Shown: positions 2,192-61,162 of the stretch, piece by piece
How the letters are laid out: each line of letters begins with the position of its first letter
Numbering within the stretch: the first letter of the stretch is position 1
Position numbers and translations under genes: made by a program
From: Exophiala sp. HKRS030
Taxonomy: Eukaryota > Ascomycota > Eurotiomycetes > Chaetothyriales > Herpotrichiellaceae
Direction of reading: 5' to 3'
NCBI GenBank assembly: GCA_023897205.1
Contig: JAHWDD010000005.1
Location: 1-64,000, forward strand
Length of the DNA: 64,000 bases
The notes under the pieces: model-generated
The model's input: the letters and a program-made list of their open reading frames with translations, nothing else
What the model was told of the DNA's origin: nothing
Databases searched by the model: none

Positions 2192-5100
2192 TCAGCCTCG
2201 TTGGGGCCTGTCGTGCTCCCTTGGCCGCACTGGCGGAGCTCGTGATTTGAACCTTCCGGATGCTTCCGCAAATTCGAGCACTGCGTTGAGAATTTTCCAT
2301 TTGATCCCGCCATTGCCTACTTTACCTTGCTCGTTCCGAGGAGTTCCTCCGAGCATGCTTGCGGTGCACCCAAGTGTACCACCTACCTGAGTTCGTAGTT
2401 CTCGTCTTGCTTCCCAGAGCCTCGGGCAGTCCACCAGTACGTGGACTACCGTTTCGATCGCTCCGCACACGCAGCGGTCGTCATCGGTGAATTTGAATCG
2501 TCGGCTATGTGGTGCGAGCCACGAGTGTCCCGTCCGCATTTGTATCATGAGGTAGGTTCGGTGTCGTGTGAGCTGACCGTAAATGCGGAAGGCCCGCCTG
2601 GCTGGGAGACTATCGTCGATTCTTTTCAGGTGTTGGCCTTTCGGGCTGGTTTTCCATTCTTCTTGCCATTCTTCTTGAATCTTCCTGCGTGCTGTTCGTT
2701 TGGATGTTGATACAAGACGACCAAAGCGGTGTTGCTTTTCAGACGTAACTGCTTGCTTTGCGAGCCGGTCGGCTAATTCGTTCCCTTCGATGCCTGCATG
2801 GCCTGGGATCCAGTGTAACCGGAGTTTTATTCGTCGATCTCGAAATGTCGAAATTCGATCCAGGATACGATGTACTATCGCTTGGCCTGGTTTATTGGAT
2901 GGGTTGGCGATCGCTTTAATCGCGGACTGACTGTCGCTAATGATAGTATAGTTCTTGTCTCTCCGCCTGTTGACTCTTTCTTGAAAGATGGCTTCGACCG
3001 CGTGATAGATAGCGATTAACTCGGCGGCATGTACCGTCCAATCACTGGCTGGTCCAATTCCGATTTGCCACGTCCGCTGTGGTCCCCCTTTCCGGTTCAC
3101 CATTACCACCCCCGCGCCGAGTTTCGAGTGTTTCTCTGAGGCGTCTGTGTAGATGACCGCCTCTGAATCTTCGATCAATTCAGCCACCTTGTCAAGTGCC
3201 TGTGAACTGTCTGGGTCGATGGTGATCTCGACTGATCCCGACCGGGTCCATGGCGGAAGCGGGGTTGGATCGATGGTCTCCAACGACTCGAGTTCCCCAC
3301 TGTCTAGCGATTTGGTGGTTTCGGCCAAGGGAAATCTGGGCTGAGTTCCCTGTCGGTTCATCCGTTGTCTGACTCGGTCCATGACTCTGGCGAGTGGGTG
3401 TGTCGGGGGCAGAGAACATAATCGCAGCACTACTTCTTGTCCTCGTTGTTTGAGCCTGAGGCGCGTAGGGAGGATATGGCACTCGACTTCTAGCACCTGG
3501 GTCGCGACAGACCTGAAGGCCGAGACGATCCGGAGGAGGGCTGCTCTTTGGACAGTGTTGAGGACTCTGAGATGTCCTTTATCCTTGTTGGGATTGTGCC
3601 ACACGGTCGATGCATAATCCAGCTTGGGTACGACGCAAGCCTGGTATATTTGTTTCATTTGGGCAGGCCGCAGATGTCTCAGCCCTCCCATCCCGAGGGC
3701 GGTGGTGGTTGCGGCTTTCACAGCTTGTTGCACGTGATCTTTCCACCGCAATTCATCGTCGAATACCACTCCGAGGAGTTTAGCTGTCCGGCTGGCAGGA
3801 ATGACCTGGCCGTCCATGGTGATACTTCCCTTTTCCCGTTCTTTCTTGCGTCGGGTGAGGTGAATCAGTTCCGTCTTTTCCGCCGCGAAACTCGATCCCG
3901 TCAAATGCGCCCATTCCGTGATTCGAGGGATGTCTTCTTGTTGAATCTTCTGGAGGTTCTCTTCTGCCGATTTTCCTACTCTCCATCGGAAATAGTCATC
4001 AATAAATGCTGATGCGCCCCCCTGAGTGTCCACCTCCTGGTTCACCAAACCTGAATTGAGGAGGGTAAACAGAATGGGCGAGAGTGGCGAGCCTTGCGCC
4101 AGCCCGGCATTTTGCAGCGCGCTGACCTTGGTGGAGAACCCGTCGAAGTGGATGCTTGCCGTCCGATCCTGCATGAAGCTCTGAATCCATCTCCTCGCTG
4201 GCGTGGGTATACCCTTCTCTAGGAGGCGGGCATCCAGTGTTGTAGCTTTGACCCCATTGAATGCTCCTTTCAGGTCGAATGCAATCAATGTGACCACTCT
4301 GCCTCTCAGCCATGCTTGATCGATCGCATTTGCTAGGACCAGGAGGGCTTGCTCTGTTGTTCGGCCTGGACGGCCCCCAAACTGAGTGTCCGGGAGCAGT
4401 TCATACTTTTCCGCGTAGTAGGAGAGGCGTCGGGCAACCACCGCTTCCAGCAGCTTGCCTAGGGTGTTCAAAAGTGAAATAGGGCGGTATGCCGCAGCAG
4501 ATGTGTAGTCTGATTTGCCTGGTTTCCTCAGAACCACTATCTTCGCCACTTTCCATTGCTGAGGGTAGTGACCAAGGTCGATGGACGCTGTGAAGATGCT
4601 GGTCACGATCGATGATATGTAGGGCCAGATCTGGAACCATACCAGGGTTGGTATGCCATCCTCACCAGGTGCAGTCCGTTTCTTCATTCGTTGGAGTGTC
4701 TTCGTGATTTCTTGTTCCGTGACTGGTTCCCATGGGATCTCCTTCGGTGGGACGATACACTCGGGTGGCGGTTGGCTGGTTGGTGGAAAGAAGGTCTCCA
4801 ATAGTACGCGTGCCTTGTCATGGTTGTCCGTCACTTCGTAGTCACCCACCCGGAGTGGCGGCAGGTTTGCGAAAGCGTCGTTCCTTTTCATGTATGGCGT
4901 CGCCCGCCACACTGTTTGCGAGGTGGCTTGGTCGAGGAAGTCTTTCCAATCTGCTGCCTTGACTTTCTCAAGTTGACGAGTCCAGTGTCTTCGTTTGGTC
5001 CGCCATGCCTTGTGCAGCTCCAATGTCCGAGGGTGTTGGCGACCATTTCTCGCGCAGCTGCGCTGGTACTTCCTGCGAGATTTGTTCACCTCCTTGAGTT

Positions 5101-6076
5101 CTGTTTTGAGTTGTCGAGTAAACCATCTCTTTGAGTATGGGCTGGGTTTCGCTATCGGGATGTGTTTGCCAATGGCGGTGGTTGTTATGTCAATGAGGGT
5201 TTTTACTGCTTGGTCCAACTCTCCTTTCGTTTGGATCTTCGGAGCACCCGACATGTGTGAGTGGATCATAGCTCCTATCTTGGCCCATTCCGCTTGTTTG
5301 TATGCTCGGCGTGGTGTGGTTTCTGGTCGCTGTTCCACCCGAATGTCCCATTCCGAGTACGTGGCGCAGTGATCGGATGCGAAATTGTCTCTGTACAGAT
5401 CACATTTTACTATCGAGTCGGGTGTGTTTGTAAGCGTCAGATCGATGGTCGACCTCTGGCCTGGTCGGCTGAGTGACCAATATGTCGGAATGCCGCTGGG
5501 AAGGCATGAAGACAATCCTTGGGCGTGGATGAAGTTGATGAGCTCCTCAGCGTGTGCCATGATACGGGCGTACACGTATGTACCGCTCCAAGCTGGGTGG
5601 TGGCGGTTGAAATCCCCAGCTATGATAAGACTGGTTGGGATTGGCCAGTTTCGCGTATGTTCTTCGATGGTCACCTCGATCTCGTTCAACGTGGTTTGCA
5701 TGCTCTGTATTTCGTGGACACGATGCAGGTCGATGGGTTCTGTGTAGACCGAGAACACTAGTATCTGCCTTTTCCCGTTCCAGATTTTGATTGCCGTGAC
5801 GTCTGGATGATTACAAGCTATTTGGCGGTGTGCCGAGGTTGAGATTCTCTTGTTGACGTAGATGAGGCTGCGTTTTCGGATATTGTCATCTTGATGGGTT
5901 GGTTGATATGTGTGCCAGAGGCGGTGGTTGACATATGTCTGGTACGAGGTGATGGACGGCTCTTGTATTAGCAGCACGTCGAGGTCCTGTGTTGCTTGAT
6001 CATTGATGAGAGCCTCCATGCCGGCGCGCGATTTCATGATGTTCAACTGCAGTATTTTCAGACTATTTTGATTCAT
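2192..6076 (-). CDS. LINE ORF2: endonuclease, reverse transcriptase, RNase H
   Basis: About 1294 codons from the ATG at 6076. Domains in order: an exonuclease-endonuclease-phosphatase fold at roughly residues 5-230 (LLIQEPS; GDFNRHHPAW; SDHCATYSEW); reverse transcriptase at about 460-740 (KKRTAPGEDGIP; YRPISLLNTLGK; AQGSPLSPILF; catalytic AFIDDYF); RNase H at about 1000-1130 (IYTDASEKHSKLGAG; ISDSQSAIKAI; LHWIPGHAGIEGNELADRLA); and a C-terminal Cys/His cluster (CVCGAIETVVHVLVDC). The protein performs target-primed reverse transcription. Its ATG shares four bases with the ORF1 stop (AATGA), so translation probably depends on termination-reinitiation after ORF1. All catalytic motifs are present. 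Confidence 0.93.
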   Translation of the reverse strand: MNQNSLKILQLNIMKSRAGMEALINDQATQDLDVLLIQEPSITSYQTYVNHRLWHTYQPTHQDDNIRKRSLIYVNKRISTSAHRQIACNHPDVTAIKIWNGKRQILVFSVYTEPIDLHRVHEIQSMQTTLNEIEVTIEEHTRNWPIPTSLIIAGDFNRHHPAWSGTYVYARIMAHAEELINFIHAQGLSSCLPSGIPTYWSLSRPGQRSTIDLTLTNTPDSIVKCDLYRDNFASDHCATYSEWDIRVEQRPETTPRRAYKQAEWAKIGAMIHSHMSGAPKIQTKGELDQAVKTLIDITTTAIGKHIPIAKPSPYSKRWFTRQLKTELKEVNKSRRKYQRSCARNGRQHPRTLELHKAWRTKRRHWTRQLEKVKAADWKDFLDQATSQTVWRATPYMKRNDAFANLPPLRVGDYEVTDNHDKARVLLETFFPPTSQPPPECIVPPKEIPWEPVTEQEITKTLQRMKKRTAPGEDGIPTLVWFQIWPYISSIVTSIFTASIDLGHYPQQWKVAKIVVLRKPGKSDYTSAAAYRPISLLNTLGKLLEAVVARRLSYYAEKYELLPDTQFGGRPGRTTEQALLVLANAIDQAWLRGRVVTLIAFDLKGAFNGVKATTLDARLLEKGIPTPARRWIQSFMQDRTASIHFDGFSTKVSALQNAGLAQGSPLSPILFTLLNSGLVNQEVDTQGGASAFIDDYFRWRVGKSAEENLQKIQQEDIPRITEWAHLTGSSFAAEKTELIHLTRRKKEREKGSITMDGQVIPASRTAKLLGVVFDDELRWKDHVQQAVKAATTTALGMGGLRHLRPAQMKQIYQACVVPKLDYASTVWHNPNKDKGHLRVLNTVQRAALLRIVSAFRSVATQVLEVECHILPTRLRLKQRGQEVVLRLCSLPPTHPLARVMDRVRQRMNRQGTQPRFPLAETTKSLDSGELESLETIDPTPLPPWTRSGSVEITIDPDSSQALDKVAELIEDSEAVIYTDASEKHSKLGAGVVMVNRKGGPQRTWQIGIGPASDWTVHAAELIAIYHAVEAIFQERVNRRRDKNYTIISDSQSAIKAIANPSNKPGQAIVHRILDRISTFRDRRIKLRLHWIPGHAGIEGNELADRLAKQAVTSEKQHRFGRLVSTSKRTARRKIQEEWQEEWKTSPKGQHLKRIDDSLPARRAFRIYGQLTRHRTYLMIQMRTGHSWLAPHSRRFKFTDDDRCVCGAIETVVHVLVDCPRLWEARRELRTQVGGTLGCTASMLGGTPRNEQGKVGNGGIKWKILNAVLEFAEASGRFKSRAPPVRPREHDRPQRG

Positions 6077-7311
6077 TGGCAACGGTTTGCTTGGGTAGGC
6101 CCATTCTGTTCGTTGAGTCGGATGCGGTCGGGTCCATAGCGGTTGGTATCTCTACCTCCTTCGTTGGATGGGCAGTCTCGTCTTTCATGATTGCCATTGC
6201 AGAGGTGGCATCCTTTTGGCTTTGGACAGTCCCTCTGGAAGTGTCCTGGCTCGCGGCAATTATAACACTTCTTCCTCTCAAGGTCATAGGCCGATACCCC
6301 TATGTGTCGTTGACCATAAACTATTCCATGCGTAATAGCTTCCTGTTGTGCCGCCTCCGTGTCAAACCATATTCCGAGAGTCGCCTGGTACCCCAGGGCC
6401 TTGCCTTTTTCAATGAGCCATGTAGCTTCGTCGATTTGGGCGTTCCTAGCCTGCATCTCGTTTTCTTCCATGAGTTGGTGAATAAATTCGTGTTCGTTGT
6501 CTGGCAGCATAATGCCGTCGGTAGGGAACCTATGGACGACCACTGGGAATCGTGGTTTGACTAGCTTGGTATTGTTGCCAAGTTCCTGCAGCCATTCCGT
6601 GTGTGCTTTTGCCGTCGCCGCTGATTGTGCATCCTTACACCGCACCACATATCCGGTGCGAGTTGTATTTACTCCTGTCACTTCAACATCTTTTGTCTTG
6701 TCTGTCTTGAGAAGGGCTCCTCGAATCAGGCCAATGGCCCTTCCTATGGGGAGGTTTCTGGCAAGGTTTTCTTCATTCACTTCGTCCCCGGTTCGGGTGG
6801 CCTTGGTGCTGATACGTAGGCAGTGAGGTTCTTTCGTCAGCTGTGAGTGGTTTGTCGGAGCGGTGGGTCCTGTGGAGGCTTGAGTTGCGCTACCTCCATT
6901 CGCAATTGACGCCCAGGAGCGTGGTGGGGTGAGGGAAGCGGTGGTCTGTCCGAGTTTGGATTCGAGAGAGCGGACCGTGCCTTGGAGTTCAAGATTTTGG
7001 CTTTTCACCTGCTGCAACTCGTCCTGTATATCGCGGAGGGTATTGTTCTGAGTTGCGATGGTTTCCTTCAGGTCCAACATAATGTTGACGAGCTCTTCTA
7101 GGGTGGTTCTCTTGGTTTCTTGGGGCCCTTGGCGCGGGGGAGACCAGGTTTCATCTCCGTCCACGGCCACCGAAATCGTCTCCGGGTCCGAGTCATTTTC
7201 AGCGATCAGTTGGGACGCTTTTGCGCTGGGTTTCCTGGCTCTTCCCGAGGGGCCTCGTCGTGGTGTTGCTGGAGTTGCTGGAGTTGCTGGTGTTCTGCGT
7301 GTGGCGGGCAA
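6073..7311 (-). CDS. LINE ORF1: gag-like zinc-knuckle protein
   Basis: About 410 codons. The N terminus is low complexity (a PAT tripeptide repeat encoded by tandem ggagttgct units near 7270-7290). A coiled coil follows (LEELVNIMLDLKETIATQN), then a nucleic-acid-binding domain and two C-terminal CCHC-type knuckles (CYNCREPGHFQRDC and CHLCNGNHERRDC). It should package the element RNA. The open frame reaches 7311 but has no ATG before the methionine near codon 77; the first sense codon used here is TTG, and an in-frame TGA lies about 45 bp upstream. Either translation starts at a non-AUG codon, an exon is missing, or a frameshift has cut the start off from the overlapping minus frame that extends to 7585. 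Confidence 0.85.
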   Translation of the reverse strand: MPATRRTPATPATPATPRRGPSGRARKPSAKASQLIAENDSDPETISVAVDGDETWSPPRQGPQETKRTTLEELVNIMLDLKETIATQNNTLRDIQDELQQVKSQNLELQGTVRSLESKLGQTTASLTPPRSWASIANGGSATQASTGPTAPTNHSQLTKEPHCLRISTKATRTGDEVNEENLARNLPIGRAIGLIRGALLKTDKTKDVEVTGVNTTRTGYVVRCKDAQSAATAKAHTEWLQELGNNTKLVKPRFPVVVHRFPTDGIMLPDNEHEFIHQLMEENEMQARNAQIDEATWLIEKGKALGYQATLGIWFDTEAAQQEAITHGIVYGQRHIGVSAYDLERKKCYNCREPGHFQRDCPKPKGCHLCNGNHERRDCPSNEGGRDTNRYGPDRIRLNEQNGPTQANRCQ

Positions 7312-7456
7312 TGTCCAATCGGGAGCAGCCGACGCTAAAGCGCGTCGGGCGCGTCAGCTTTTGGGGCCTCCCGAGACGCGTCTGATGGGCTTTCGTGCTT
7401 TTCCTCAAGGTACAGCCGTTTTCGAGTACATCAATCCTTCTGCCGCTACAGTAATC

Positions 7457-53670: not shown

Positions 53671-53679
53671 AAAAAAAAA
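53671..53679 (-). terminator. T9 run, likely Pol III terminator
   Basis: Nine T on the minus strand, 51 nt past the end of the tRNA and just after the extra T-arm. Between the tRNA and here only a T4 run occurs, which is usually too short to stop fungal Pol III. Confidence 0.6.
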
Positions 53680-53686
53680 TATCACG

Positions 53687-53703
53687 CTGGGAATTGAACC
53701 CAG
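53687..53703 (-). promoter_or_regulatory. downstream T-arm hairpin with intact B box
   Basis: A 17-nt perfect T arm (CTGGG stem, TTCAATT loop, CCCAG stem) including GGTTCAATTCC at 53690-53700, which matches the Pol III B-box consensus. No tRNA 5' half accompanies it. It lies 26 nt after the discriminator base of the tRNA-Ile and just before the T9 run. It may be an extragenic B box or the remnant of a second tRNA. Confidence 0.6.
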
Positions 53704-53743
53704 ACAGGAAGAGAAAATCTTGAACAAGATGGTCCATATGGGG

Positions 53744-53796
53744 CTGAACATGGAATGTTAGATGTTGTATATTGTGCAGGAGTAATGAGAGCTTAC
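53744..53796 (-). other. spliceosomal-type intron in tRNA T loop
   Basis: 53 bp, GTAAGC donor, CTAAC branch-like site, TTCAG acceptor. Splits the T loop after TTCGAC and so cuts the B box. Confidence 0.75.
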
Positions 53797-53818
53797 GTCG
53801 AACCCATGACCTTGGCGT

Positions 53819-53835
53819 ATACATAACATTGAAGT
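53819..53835 (-). other. canonical tRNA anticodon-loop intron
   Basis: 17 nt starting acttcaa, one base 3' of the anticodon AAT, where tRNA splicing endonuclease acts. Confidence 0.75.
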
Positions 53836-53847
53836 TATTAGCACCAC

Positions 53848-53901
53848 CTGGAGATATGTGAGTATAAGGGTGATCGCGTCAATAGTAGGCGAAATGCTTA
53901 C
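53848..53901 (-). other. spliceosomal-type intron between D stem and position 26
   Basis: 54 bp, GTAAGC donor, CTCCAG acceptor, branch candidates TTGAC or TACTCAC. Removal joins GAGC to GTGGTG. Confidence 0.72.
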
Positions 53902-53912
53902 GCTCTAACCAA

Positions 53913-53965
53913 CTGTTGAGAATTAGTGATTGTACAATATCACATTGTAGCAAATGTGAACTAAC
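53913..53965 (-). other. spliceosomal-type intron in tRNA D loop
   Basis: 53 bp, GTTAGT donor, CACTAAT branch-like site, AACAG acceptor. Splits TAGCTCAG from TTGG and so cuts the A box. Confidence 0.75.
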
Positions 53966-53980
53966 CTGAGCTAACAGACC

Positions 53981-54640
53981 GCAAGGCGGATTGTGGTAGC
54001 TTTTTTCACGGTCCCAACTATATTGTTATAATTTCTCAACGTTGCCCCAAGTGGCTCCACCTCCCACGGTGATTTGCTGGACTCGGCTAACAAGTACTCC
54101 ATACGAGATGGCTCTGAGGTAGTGAGCTTTTCTAGGTCAACTGAAACACATACCATAGCTTTCTCACCAAGCAGTCCTATCTCATACATACCTAGTTTTT
54201 ATTGCCACTGAGATCTAAAAGTCTATAAATCAGTGATGAAACTGAAAAAGTCCAAATGCCATGACCAGTGGAATTTGCAAGAAGGGATGCCAAGACCCGC
54301 CTCGTACGCGATCTGCACCAGCAACATACATAAGAAGTCTACGACAAGGGATTGAGGCATTGAGATGTTATTGGACACACATATTGAGAAGTTAATGATA
54401 GAAGATTTGAATACTCTTTTCACCCTCTGGCCGGGACACCTTTGCATTCAAATCAACACCAAAACTGGTAACCATCCCTGCAGCACCGTGAGAGTAGCGT
54501 GCTCCAATCAAACCACGGCCTATCTCATCGCTAAACATCCGTTGCATGGCTCAGTCTCGAAGTTGAATCAGTTGAAAGGAGAGCCCCCGGTGTCATCTCC
54601 ACTGGTTGCAGTTTCTTCCGCCCTTTTAAGAACAATGTCT
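53981..54640. other. intergenic, upstream of tRNA
   Basis: A TATA-like minus-strand stretch (attataacaatatag, about 54018-54032) lies 40-50 bp before the tRNA. A 72-codon minus frame (53971-54189) has protein-like composition but runs into the tRNA and is not supported further. Confidence 0.4.
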
Positions 54641-57514: not shown

Positions 57515-60500
57515 ATGGCGGCAGCAGTGGCCAGAAATGGCACGACGAGCACCTCTAATGGCCTCATGGGTGGCATCACCCCAGACTCCCGCTTCGTCGA
57601 TATCCCAACAGCCATCGACATTCCTGTGTCTGGTGGCCTTGATGCAGACGAAGCCGTCGAGGTCAACCTCGAAGACCACCTGGACGATCCAACCGAATTG
57701 TGCCAATTGCTGGAAAATGAGAAGGCAGCAAAGAATTTATGGATAACAATCGCCTTGGCCTACGCGAAGCAGACTCAAATAGACCATGCTCTCGAGATCT
57801 TGGACAAGGGTCTTGGGTCGCTCGCACGTAGTGGTCCCAAAGAACGGCTGAGTCTCCTTGCCTGCGTCGCGTGGCTCGACCTCTTCAAAAGTCGACAGGC
57901 TCCTCGCGTGTTGTCTGAGACACAAGTGAACAGCGATATGAAAACCAAGGATCACTATCTTCGAGAAGCCACTACGACCATCAACGACGCTCTGCGCATC
58001 AATCCTGCCTTCCCACCCCTCTACCTCACACGAGGCGTTCTTTTCCTCCTTCGAGCTTCGCTGCAATCGTCCACAAGAGCGGGCGCTGATGCGGAAAGAG
58101 CCGAGTCCCTCAAGCAAGCCTTGAAGTGTTTTGATGATGCACTCAGATCCTCCGACGGGCGTAACATGATGGCTGCAATGGGAAAAGCTAGGACTCTATA
58201 CCTTCAAAGACAGTTCGCTCCGGCTCTTCAAACCTATCAAGATGTCCTAGCCAAAATGCCCGGTCTCACTGACCCAGATCCGAGGATAGGCATCGGGTGC
58301 TGTCTGTGGCAGCTGGGGTTCCCCGATCGTGCCAAAGCCGCGTGGGAAAGATCTCTGGCATTGACTCCCGAGTCCAAGGTCGCTCACGCCCTCCTCGGAG
58401 TGTACTATCTTCATGAAAGTGCCAAATATCCTGCGTCGGATCCTCAATTCAACATCCTCTATAAGAAAGCAATCTCCGAGCATACAAAGAAAGCTTACAC
58501 CATCGACAAAAACTTCCCGCTCAGCTGCGCGACCTTTGCGAGCTATTTCCTGTTGACTGGAAGGTATGACACTGTCGAGCCGCTTGCCCGAAAAGCAATC
58601 GAACAAACAGACATCAATGCTATTGCGAGTGATGGTTGGTATTTGTTGGCCAGAAAAGAGCATAATAAAGGCGACCTCGCCAAGGCAAATGAGTGCTACA
58701 CACGAGCAGATCAAGCCCGAGGCGGTTTGGATAAGGGCTACTTCCCGGCCAAATTTGGTCTCATTCAAATAATGGTCCAGAGTCAAGACACCCAGGGGGC
58801 CAAGTTCCGCCTAGAGTCCCTTGGCCAACTCAACAAGCATGTCGAGGCGATGACATTGTTAGGGTGTATATATGCCGAAGAGGCCTTCTCGACACAGACG
58901 GCCATTACAAAAGAGGACAGAGCAGCTTCGGCAAGAAAGGCCATCACGTTGTTTGAGAACGTGAGAAAGACTTGGAAGGACGAAAAATCTCGAGCCAAGG
59001 CGGACGAGTCCGTTTTGCTGTATCTCGCACGGCTCTACGAACAGGAGAACCCAATCGAGAGCCTCAAATGTCTACAACAAGTTGAAGCGATGCAGCTTGA
59101 AAAGTTTCCTGATGAGGACCGTCCAGAACCCAACGAAGACGAAGCTGCCTATATCGCTCAAATGCGGGAGAACTTGCCTCCTCAGCTACTCAATAACATG
59201 GCTTGTTTCTTGTACGGACAAGAGTCATTCTCCCTCGCTCGAGAGACATTCCAGATTGCACTGAACGCGTGCGTAAAGTTGACTGAAAAGCAAGAGGCCG
59301 AAAAGAAAGCGGCGGAAGAGGATAAGATGAGTTCCGAAGACGTGGACAATAGCGACACCGATGCTCTTGTTACGACAATCTCTTATAACCTTGCCAGAAC
59401 CTACGAAGCACTAGGCTTGGTAGCTGAAGCACAAAAGGTTTACGAAGGTCTCCTTGGAAGACACGCTGACTACACGGATGCATTGGCACGCCTGGCCTAC
59501 ATTGCGCTTGAAACTTCTCCACGTGACGAGGGTCCTCGCAAGATCAATGCTGTATATCAGAGTGATTATGGCAATACAGAAGTCAGAGCTTTGATGGGCT
59601 GGTATCACCATAGCGCGAAGAAGAAGACCAACAACATCGCCGAGGATGCAGAGAATCGACACTATAAGCACACTCTTCAAGGCTATGATAAGCACGATTT
59701 GTATTCGCTGACTGGAATGGGCAACGTTCATCTCACCATTGCCAGAGATATGCCCCGAAACACTGATCAGGAAAAAGAGAAGCGAAGCAAAATGTACGCC
59801 AAGGCCTACGAGTTCTTCGACAAAGCTCTACAACTCGACCCAAAGAATGCATATTCCGCTCAGGGTATCGCGATTGCCCTTTGTGATGACAAGAAGTCCT
59901 ATTCAGATGCTCTTCAGATATTCACTAAAGTCAAGGACACCCTTCGCGATGCTTCTGTCAATATCAATTTAGGTCACGTTATGACAGAGTTACGCCAATA
60001 TCAGCGTGGAATTGACAACTACGAGATTGCTTTGAGAAAAGAAACCAAAGGCGAAAATGCTCAATTACTTGCTTGTCTAGCAAGAGCATGGCTGTTGAAA
60101 GGCAAGGCAGACAGATCGATCGCATCGTTGAATACGGCACTGGATTACATGAAACGAGCACTGGCTACGCAGGAAGATTCGCCGCATCTGCAGTTCAACG
60201 TCGCCTTCATTCAGTTCCAGATCGCACAGCATGTCAATCAAGCTAAAGAGACTGATCGGACTCTGTCTGATGTGGATGCCGCGATCACCGGGCTGGAACA
60301 GGCCATTGAAACGTTTGAACAAGTGGCCCAGCATAAGCAACCCCCATACCCCCGTAGTGCACTTGAACAACGTGCAGCTATGGGTAAGAATACTATGCGC
60401 AATCAGCTTGAGCGACAACGCGCCAGGCAGGCGACTTATGAGGCCGAGAATGCTACAAGACTCCAAGAGGCAATCGAGAAACGCCAGGAGGAATTGCGGA

Positions 60501-61162
60501 GACGCGAAGAAGCCTCCAAACGTCGCAGAGAGGAGGAAGAGGAACGGGCTAAAAAGATTGCAGATGAACGGAGGAAGATTGTCGAAGAGACAGAGAAGCT
60601 CGCCGAACAACTCCGGGCTGAAGCTGCTGCGAGAGAAGCTGCCGAGTATACTGACGATGAGGAAACTGGAGAGCGTGTCAAGCGCAAGTCGAAGAAAACT
60701 AGCACCAAGCGCAAGAAGAGAGATGATGAAGACGGCTTCATCGACAACGACGGCGATGTGTCTGATGGAAGAAGCGAAAAAAGTGTTTCGAGAACTCCCC
60801 TCAGTGGCTCCGACAATGAAGCATCAACCGAGAAGCCAAAGAAGAAGAAGAGGAAGTTGGAGAGAAAGAGCAAAGCAAAGGAGCCTCGCAAGAACGACAA
60901 ATACAAGTCTGCCGCGGTGGTTGTGGACTCGGACTCGGAGCTGGAAGATGAGCCTGAAGCTGTCCCTACCCCCGATGTGGACCCTGACACTCCGGCATCC
61001 CCTGCTTCAGACAGGGACGAGGAAATGGCCGACACCAGAGACGAAGAAGAAGAGGTCAGCGCACAGCCTCCCAGACAGCGGAAACAACTTCGAACGATCG
61101 CCGACGATGATGACGATGAGGACGAGGATGAGGAAGCGATGAATGGTCATGCTGAATCCTGA
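57515..61162 (+). CDS. ctr9: Ctr9, PAF1-complex TPR subunit
   Basis: Single exon, 1215 codons from the ATG after cattcata. The first 900 residues are tandem tetratricopeptide repeats, for example NPAFPPLYLTRGVLFLLRAS, FDKALQLDPKNAYSAQGIAI and VNINLGHVMTELRQYQRGID. The last 250 residues are a charged helix (RRREEASKRRREEEEERAKK) and an acidic/basic tail with DGFIDNDGDVSDGRS. Order and length match fungal Ctr9/Tpr1. The protein is the scaffold of the PAF1 elongation complex on RNA polymerase II, needed for H2B ubiquitination and H3K4 methylation. Highly conserved and intact; marks the start of core genome in this window. Confidence 0.95.
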   Translation: MAAAVARNGTTSTSNGLMGGITPDSRFVDIPTAIDIPVSGGLDADEAVEVNLEDHLDDPTELCQLLENEKAAKNLWITIALAYAKQTQIDHALEILDKGLGSLARSGPKERLSLLACVAWLDLFKSRQAPRVLSETQVNSDMKTKDHYLREATTTINDALRINPAFPPLYLTRGVLFLLRASLQSSTRAGADAERAESLKQALKCFDDALRSSDGRNMMAAMGKARTLYLQRQFAPALQTYQDVLAKMPGLTDPDPRIGIGCCLWQLGFPDRAKAAWERSLALTPESKVAHALLGVYYLHESAKYPASDPQFNILYKKAISEHTKKAYTIDKNFPLSCATFASYFLLTGRYDTVEPLARKAIEQTDINAIASDGWYLLARKEHNKGDLAKANECYTRADQARGGLDKGYFPAKFGLIQIMVQSQDTQGAKFRLESLGQLNKHVEAMTLLGCIYAEEAFSTQTAITKEDRAASARKAITLFENVRKTWKDEKSRAKADESVLLYLARLYEQENPIESLKCLQQVEAMQLEKFPDEDRPEPNEDEAAYIAQMRENLPPQLLNNMACFLYGQESFSLARETFQIALNACVKLTEKQEAEKKAAEEDKMSSEDVDNSDTDALVTTISYNLARTYEALGLVAEAQKVYEGLLGRHADYTDALARLAYIALETSPRDEGPRKINAVYQSDYGNTEVRALMGWYHHSAKKKTNNIAEDAENRHYKHTLQGYDKHDLYSLTGMGNVHLTIARDMPRNTDQEKEKRSKMYAKAYEFFDKALQLDPKNAYSAQGIAIALCDDKKSYSDALQIFTKVKDTLRDASVNINLGHVMTELRQYQRGIDNYEIALRKETKGENAQLLACLARAWLLKGKADRSIASLNTALDYMKRALATQEDSPHLQFNVAFIQFQIAQHVNQAKETDRTLSDVDAAITGLEQAIETFEQVAQHKQPPYPRSALEQRAAMGKNTMRNQLERQRARQATYEAENATRLQEAIEKRQEELRRREEASKRRREEEEERAKKIADERRKIVEETEKLAEQLRAEAAAREAAEYTDDEETGERVKRKSKKTSTKRKKRDDEDGFIDNDGDVSDGRSEKSVSRTPLSGSDNEASTEKPKKKKRKLERKSKAKEPRKNDKYKSAAVVVDSDSELEDEPEAVPTPDVDPDTPASPASDRDEEMADTRDEEEEVSAQPPRQRKQLRTIADDDDDEDEDEEAMNGHAES

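Follow-up and report, generated by a model that had tools for sequence, protein, structure and literature searches.

The minus strand of positions 53730-53980 of the window, the 64,000-nucleotide stretch analysed here, holds five exons that, once joined, make up a complete 74-nt tRNA-Ile(AAU). The window forms the start of contig 5 of a 59.8 Mb genome assembled in 50 contigs. In the direction of the gene, exon 1 (53966..53980, minus, 15 nt; GGTCTGTTAGCTCAG) supplies the 5' strands of the acceptor and D stems. It is followed by a 53-nt GT-AG intron (intron 1; 53913..53965, minus) that lies in the D loop and interrupts the A box, beginning with GTTAGT, ending with CAG and carrying CTAAT 11 nt from its end. 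Exon 2 (53902..53912, minus, 11 nt; TTGGTTAGAGC) is separated from exon 3 by the 54-nt GT-AG intron 2 (53848..53901, minus; GTAAGC, CAG), which is located at the border region of D stem and anticodon stem and has no CTRAY motif near its 3' end. Exon 3 (53836..53847, minus, 12 nt; GTGGTGCTAATA) bears the anticodon AAT and precedes a 17-nt ordinary tRNA intron (53819..53835, minus) at position 37/38. This insert resembles the canonical 37/38 introns and alone sits where they do, one base past the anticodon; the three GT-AG inserts lie elsewhere. Exon 4 (53797..53818, minus, 22 nt) comprises the 3' strand of the anticodon stem, the variable loop, the 5' strand of the T stem and most of the T loop, where the 53-nt GT-AG intron 3 (53744..53796, minus; GTAAGC, CTAAC 15 nt from its end, CAG) interrupts the B box. 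The 3' strands of the T and acceptor stems and the discriminator A are found in exon 5 (53730..53743, minus, 14 nt). A first-pass annotation had proposed a 74-nt tRNA-Ile(AAU) with inserts of 53, 54 and 53 nt and a 17-nt intron, and re-reading returned the same sizes and ends; the branch-like sites it had seen in two of the three inserts are the CTAAT of intron 1 and the CTAAC of intron 3.

Neither ARAGORN nor an Rfam scan reads a tRNA in the uninterrupted window sequence. The joined 74-mer folds on paper into a cloverleaf with anticodon AAT and a cloverleaf score of 33. On its own, the 74-mer does not have the cloverleaf as its minimum-energy fold, and 25 of 200 shuffled sequences fold equally well. 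For a 91-nt intermediate from which the GT-AG inserts are removed and in which the 17-nt intron is kept, acceptor, T and extended anticodon arms are predicted, with 34 of 200 shuffles folding as well.

GT-AG inserts in the tRNA genes of the genome

GT-AG inserts recur in tRNA genes throughout the sample. A total of 21 such inserts is present in 18 of 64 sampled tRNA genes, the sample being non-random and biased toward intact T arms or good overall scores. The intron-bearing genes are those for Ile (3), Asp (3), Lys (3), Leu (3), Arg (2), Ala (2), Gly (1) and Pro (1). What had been annotated as a single case is thus not alone, and the proposed search for further tRNAs that come to light only once GT-AG inserts are taken out is answered by these 18 genes. 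The sample combines 42 genes from Rfam, 19 from a T-arm pattern, the window gene and two further tRNA-Ile(AAU) genes (L077 and L079). The Rfam tRNA search of the genome identified its 42 genes among 63 scored of 1707 candidates, including two tRNA-Arg(UCU) genes with GT-AG inserts of 54 and 58 nt at an identical variable-loop site. The genome-wide T-arm pattern matched 55 places compared with 17 for its reversed control. Thirteen of these are already-known genes, one is the T-arm beneath the window gene and 41 are new places in 39 stretches; 19 of the 41 read as tRNA genes, GT-AG inserts being present in 13 of them. A second T-arm pattern gave 53 matches against 41 for its control. A whole-genome B-box pattern matched 1165 times, with 100 of the matches listed, and its reversed control 1032 times, so that it is of no use as a census.

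Four of the loci (L089, L091, L094 and L109) were parsed by hand. L091 fails the strict cloverleaf scorer even without its GT-AG insert and shows one D-stem mismatch by eye, while L094, with a low score of 25 and a degenerate T stem, was retained in the counts. Omitted as truncated or degenerate were L106 and a second copy in L086. The latter is a tandem, 5'-truncated tRNA-Asp copy (L124 / L086, C2:904900-905620) whose sequence opens with an apparent intron 3' end and whose variable loop carries another GT-AG insert. The tRNA-Lys(CUU) gene L113 (C10:880200-880612, minus) contains two GT-AG inserts with only the 2-nt exon CG between them. By our reading, an insert at or close to 37/38 is present in about 35 of the 42 genes from Rfam, and some of these inserts are 40-50 nt long (53 nt in L010, tRNA-His).

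For two tRNAs, only genes with GT-AG inserts were found. No tRNA-Asp(GUC) without an insert was detected genome-wide using a 23-nt pattern with up to three mismatches; its sole match is the L086 gene, where the two mismatches coincide with an insert end. Similarly, a 20-nt pattern with up to three mismatches returned no insert-free tRNA-Lys(CUU), matching four places compared with six for the reversed control, and ARAGORN finds no tRNA in the four. Every Asp(GUC) and Lys(CUU) gene found therefore requires GT-AG removal. An ordinary gene for either could be hidden beyond three mismatches or in assembly gaps. The fungus probably needs the mRNA splicing machinery for part of its tRNA set.

Promoter boxes and transcription of the window gene

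Of the internal A and B boxes that make up a type 2 Pol III promoter, the window gene contains no intact B box, and its A box, as read from the sequence, is interrupted by intron 1. Since introns 1 and 3 together break both internal boxes, this anatomy counts against ordinary Pol III expression of the window copy. Among the 18 intron-bearing genes, it alone has a T-loop insert. On the same strand, 26 nt past the tRNA, a free-standing T-arm-like sequence (CTGGGTTCAATTCCCAG; 53687..53703, minus) holds the full B-box consensus within a complete hairpin, and a nine-T run after this hairpin (53671..53679, minus) is a likely Pol III terminator. A TATA-like stretch (TTATA, AATATA; 54019..54031, minus) is located about 40-50 nt upstream of the tRNA. 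This possibly displaced B box lies 29 nt downstream of the gene; at least 150 nt of 3' sequence was available for all 18 intron-bearing genes, and the first 150 nt after the other 17 contain no B box, whether strict or loose. The T-arm-like element, together with the T9 run, may serve as a stand-in for the B box cut by intron 3. A plain alternative is that it represents the remnant of a second tRNA.

The interrupted boxes, and the fact that spliceosomes normally act on Pol II transcripts, would also be accounted for if Pol II made the intron-bearing genes as independent non-coding transcripts with normal spliceosome access and without any involvement of Pol III. We regard this as unlikely given that a strict B box is still present in 15 of the 18 intron-bearing genes, that L077 and L079 have an uncut one-base variant of it and that 17 of 18 have a T run of at least five, like that of Pol III genes, in the 80 nt after the gene.

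Paralogue junctions and base pairing of the joined tRNAs

Related genes show a number of the exon junctions in unbroken form. A pattern for unbroken tRNA-Ile(AAU) identified three places. One (L078, identical to L026; C4:4188156-4188253) has the ordinary intron only. The second (L079) combines the ordinary intron with a 55-nt GT-AG insert exactly at the site of window intron 1, and in the third (L077) the variable loop holds a GT-AG insert of 60 nt and the ordinary intron is missing. The site of window intron 1 is free of inserts in L077 and L078, the junction of intron 2 is contiguous in L079 and the T loop, site of intron 3, is contiguous in both L077 and L079. Overall, 9 of the 21 junctions recur unbroken in another gene copy over 7 nt or more on either side; the remaining window joints are covered, with shorter flanks, by the four Ile genes. 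In tRNA-Asp, the insert follows CATGA in two genes and TAGTG in the third, each being unbroken at the other's site, and with inserts removed from these two sites all three genes join to an identical 72-nt tRNA. The chance of finding GT-AG at nine fixed joints is estimated from equivalent sliding positions at about 1e-18, assuming random bases and independent joints, with the two Asp sites after CATGA not being independent.

The interiors of the inserts mostly differ. Among the 21 inserts, the most alike pairs have an identity of about 0.68-0.73, their shuffles averaging 0.58-0.66. Six pairs at matching sites were compared with 300 shuffles each, and four are not clearly above them (58, 17, 44 and 38 shuffles as good), indicating that insert interiors have mostly diverged while exons have been held. 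The pairs L103/L113 (0 of 300 shuffles as good) and L079/L084 (1 of 300) are more similar, and some shared insert origin is possible on this basis. A mobile introner family was rejected, four of the six tested pairs being not clearly more alike than shuffles. It had been suggested that poorly conserved GT/AG ends would weaken a spliceosomal reading; the ends do recur at the same sites in paralogues whose insert interiors mostly differ.

When joined, the four tRNA-Ile(AAU) genes have standard base pairs in 84 of 84 pair cells. Six base pairs are changed on both sides among them, with none in any of six slid controls; 4 of 500 shuffles reach six such changes, a figure that, with four related sequences, is no more than a guide. 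Two of the six changes are located in the acceptor stem, where window exon 1 pairs with exon 5 across all four introns. Differences between the joined window tRNA and L079 are confined to paired positions, and pairing is complete. Two-sided changes combined with full pairing are expected of a working spliced tRNA and unexpected of a relic. Together with the unbroken paralogue junctions, the paired base changes rule out a chance assembly of the window tRNA.

A pseudogene or intron-invaded relic that no longer supplies tRNA would fit the interrupted promoter boxes of the window copy and the existence of three further tRNA-Ile(AAU) genes, one with the ordinary intron alone. Against it stand the absence of decay, the pairing of all stems in the joined form and the two-sided changes relative to paralogues, including those that unite exon 1 with exon 5, and we hold it to be quite improbable. 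The first-pass annotation had linked a pseudogene to a lack of spliced RNA, to decay of the locus in relatives and to several normal tRNA-Ile(AAU) genes elsewhere; the gene itself is not decayed, and one ordinary gene does exist elsewhere. As this other tRNA-Ile(AAU) gene needs no GT-AG removal, the window copy is possibly dispensable.

Splice signals, processing and relation to known introns

The inserts carry the signals of short spliceosomal introns. All three window inserts and all 21 inserts of the sample have GT..AG ends, which were chosen on the GT..AG assumption, so that the weight rests on independent checks, namely the branch motif, an end-pair control and the paralogue joints. At the 5' site, 19 of 21 inserts have G at position 5; the 3' site reads CAG in 16 inserts and TAG in the other 5, and in 15 the preceding exon base is G. 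A CTRAY motif 8-20 nt before the 3' end is present in 17 of 21 inserts, compared with a mean of 1.86 and a maximum of 9 for shuffled interiors (2000 shuffles). Four inserts fail this test, and two of the three in the window gene have the branch motif. The inserts are 47-65 nt long; of the host's protein-gene introns, a few were viewed by eye. In a free-end control in which any 40-75 nt deletion was allowed, 14 of 43 loci reached the score limit; in 12 of these 14, GT-AG belongs to the top-scoring end pairs, against 9 for the next pair. GT-AG is the sole best pair in 0 of 14 loci because the cloverleaf score tolerates sliding, and another pair is best in L091 and L103. This control supports GT-AG ends without proving them. 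An alternative scoring with one long 37/38 insert and no GT-AG removal exists for L006, L077 and L103 and is 1-3 points lower. A scan for bulge-helix-bulge motifs found none in the 21 inserts and was also negative for the ordinary intron used as positive control, meaning that the scan is without power.

A similar intron is found in another Pol III RNA of this genome. The U6 gene L075 (C5:2143871-2144024, minus) contains a 53-nt intron (GTTCGT..CTAAC..CAG) in its catalytic region and has a B-box-like site 30 nt past the start of the T run, similar to the one beneath the window gene. The second U6 gene that was found (L074) is intron-free; the Rfam search for U6 scored 47 of 3456 candidates. Neither the 20 matches to 5S rRNA (120-124 nt; 47 of 2940 candidates scored) nor the 2 matches to SRP RNA (271-272 nt; 27 of 363 candidates scored) contain an insert. 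U6 introns are reportedly the subject of a paper by Canzler et al.

That the inserts are instead tRNA-type introns in ectopic positions, removed at bulge-helix-bulge sites by the tRNA splicing endonuclease and ending in GT and AG incidentally, would agree with the ordinary 37/38 introns also present in these genes and with the ectopic and multiple tRNA introns described for a red alga and for a nucleomorph, where many lack a defined bulge-helix-bulge motif (PMC3978253), but is very hard to reconcile with a branch motif in 17 of 21 inserts, with an end-pair control favouring GT-AG and with a U6 intron of the same genome that matches the inserts in size and signals.

Overall, the window locus is very probably a working tRNA-Ile(AAU) gene with three ordinary major-spliceosome introns in addition to the usual 37/38 intron, and one of a set in this genome. 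The first-pass annotation had read the inserts as spliceosomal, and the genome-level results, namely the 18 intron-bearing genes among 64, the GT/AG ends shared with paralogues and the lack of decay, support it. The natural reading is that one tRNA would be served by two splicing machineries. We infer the following route for its maturation, including the machine involved, the order of steps and the role of the displaced B box in transcription. The gene would be transcribed, most probably by Pol III. The nuclear spliceosome would then excise the GT-AG introns by intron definition, as the exons measure only 11-22 nt in this gene and one Lys gene has an exon of 2 nt. The ends would be trimmed by RNase P and RNase Z, and the tRNA endonuclease and ligase would excise the 17-nt intron after the body can fold, placing the endonuclease step second, after GT-AG removal. 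In the Lys gene whose two GT-AG inserts are parted by CG alone, stepwise splicing would be forced. More broadly, we consider it likely that spliceosomal introns have spread across the nuclear tRNAs of this black-yeast lineage, that at least aspartate and lysine AAG decoding depends on the spliceosome and that displaced external promoter elements drive a tRNA gene whose internal boxes introns have destroyed.

Introns of tRNAs and of mRNAs are taught as separate worlds with separate machines. Eukaryotic tRNA genes are described as limited to one intron (PMC8450103), and a tRNA-intron review contains no word starting with "spliceosom" (PMC4090602). Among the papers listed by our search of the open-access literature, none deals with spliceosomal introns in tRNA genes. 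One paper, which also cites earlier U6 cases, presents U3 and U6 as the only small structured RNAs in which frequent interruption by an intron is known to date (PMC5832005). The fungal U6 introns are likewise short GT-AG introns in a Pol III RNA, and one such U6 gene is present here; in contrast to them, the introns described here have a tRNA host with an internal promoter, number up to three per gene and would require a second, unrelated splicing system in addition. Fungal U3 snoRNA introns are similar as spliceosomal introns in a small structured RNA and differ in RNA class. A 57-bp spliceosomal intron of lichen rDNA, reported to be excised from Pol I transcripts also in yeast rDNA (PMC8527467), is similar in residing in a non-Pol II RNA, which is however a Pol I rRNA and not a tRNA. 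The tRNA introns of Cyanidioschyzon merolae and of the nucleomorph resemble the present ones in being several and in lying at unusual sites of eukaryotic tRNA genes; those of the alga are ectopic and tied to bulge-helix-bulge sites and the tRNA endonuclease (PMC3978253), whereas the inserts here are GT-AG with a branch motif.

If the spliceosomal reading is true, one precursor needs both splicing machines, and translation is directly dependent on the spliceosome outside mRNA. Spliceosomal introns would then be able to colonise an essential Pol III gene family, even breaking its promoter, and direct tests would become possible of how introns are gained, how the spliceosome reaches Pol III transcripts and how an internal promoter is replaced. 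Reported tRNA counts are 64, 38 and 73 for three Exophiala (PMC8709033) and 79 and 78 for Knufia obscura strains (PMC11133487). These low counts in Chaetothyriales (38-79) may partly reflect hidden inserts, as standard finders would not look for GT-AG inserts.

Further elements were observed in the genome and in the window. Three similar stretches (L101, L110 and L111), each with GATGGCTCAGG or a near match followed by a T-arm-like sequence, were read as non-tRNA and might represent either a Pol III RNA without a name or a repeat derived from tRNA. L112 (C8:1642657-1643271) consists of tandem similar units, each ending with a T-arm-like sequence and with a T run between units, and shows no cloverleaf. 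In the window, a reverse-transcriptase-like ORF of 1319 codons (2192-7353, minus) adjoins a zinc-knuckle ORF and appears by eye to be a LINE-type retrotransposon. CTR9 (57518-61162) is 100% identical to a Knufia peltigerae record, 95% to Exophiala spinifera and 55% to Knufia fluminis, both genera belonging to the order Chaetothyriales; this protein match places the genome in that order, near Exophiala. As CTR9 agrees with Exophiala and reaches only 55% with Knufia fluminis, the Knufia label of the 100% record may be wrong.
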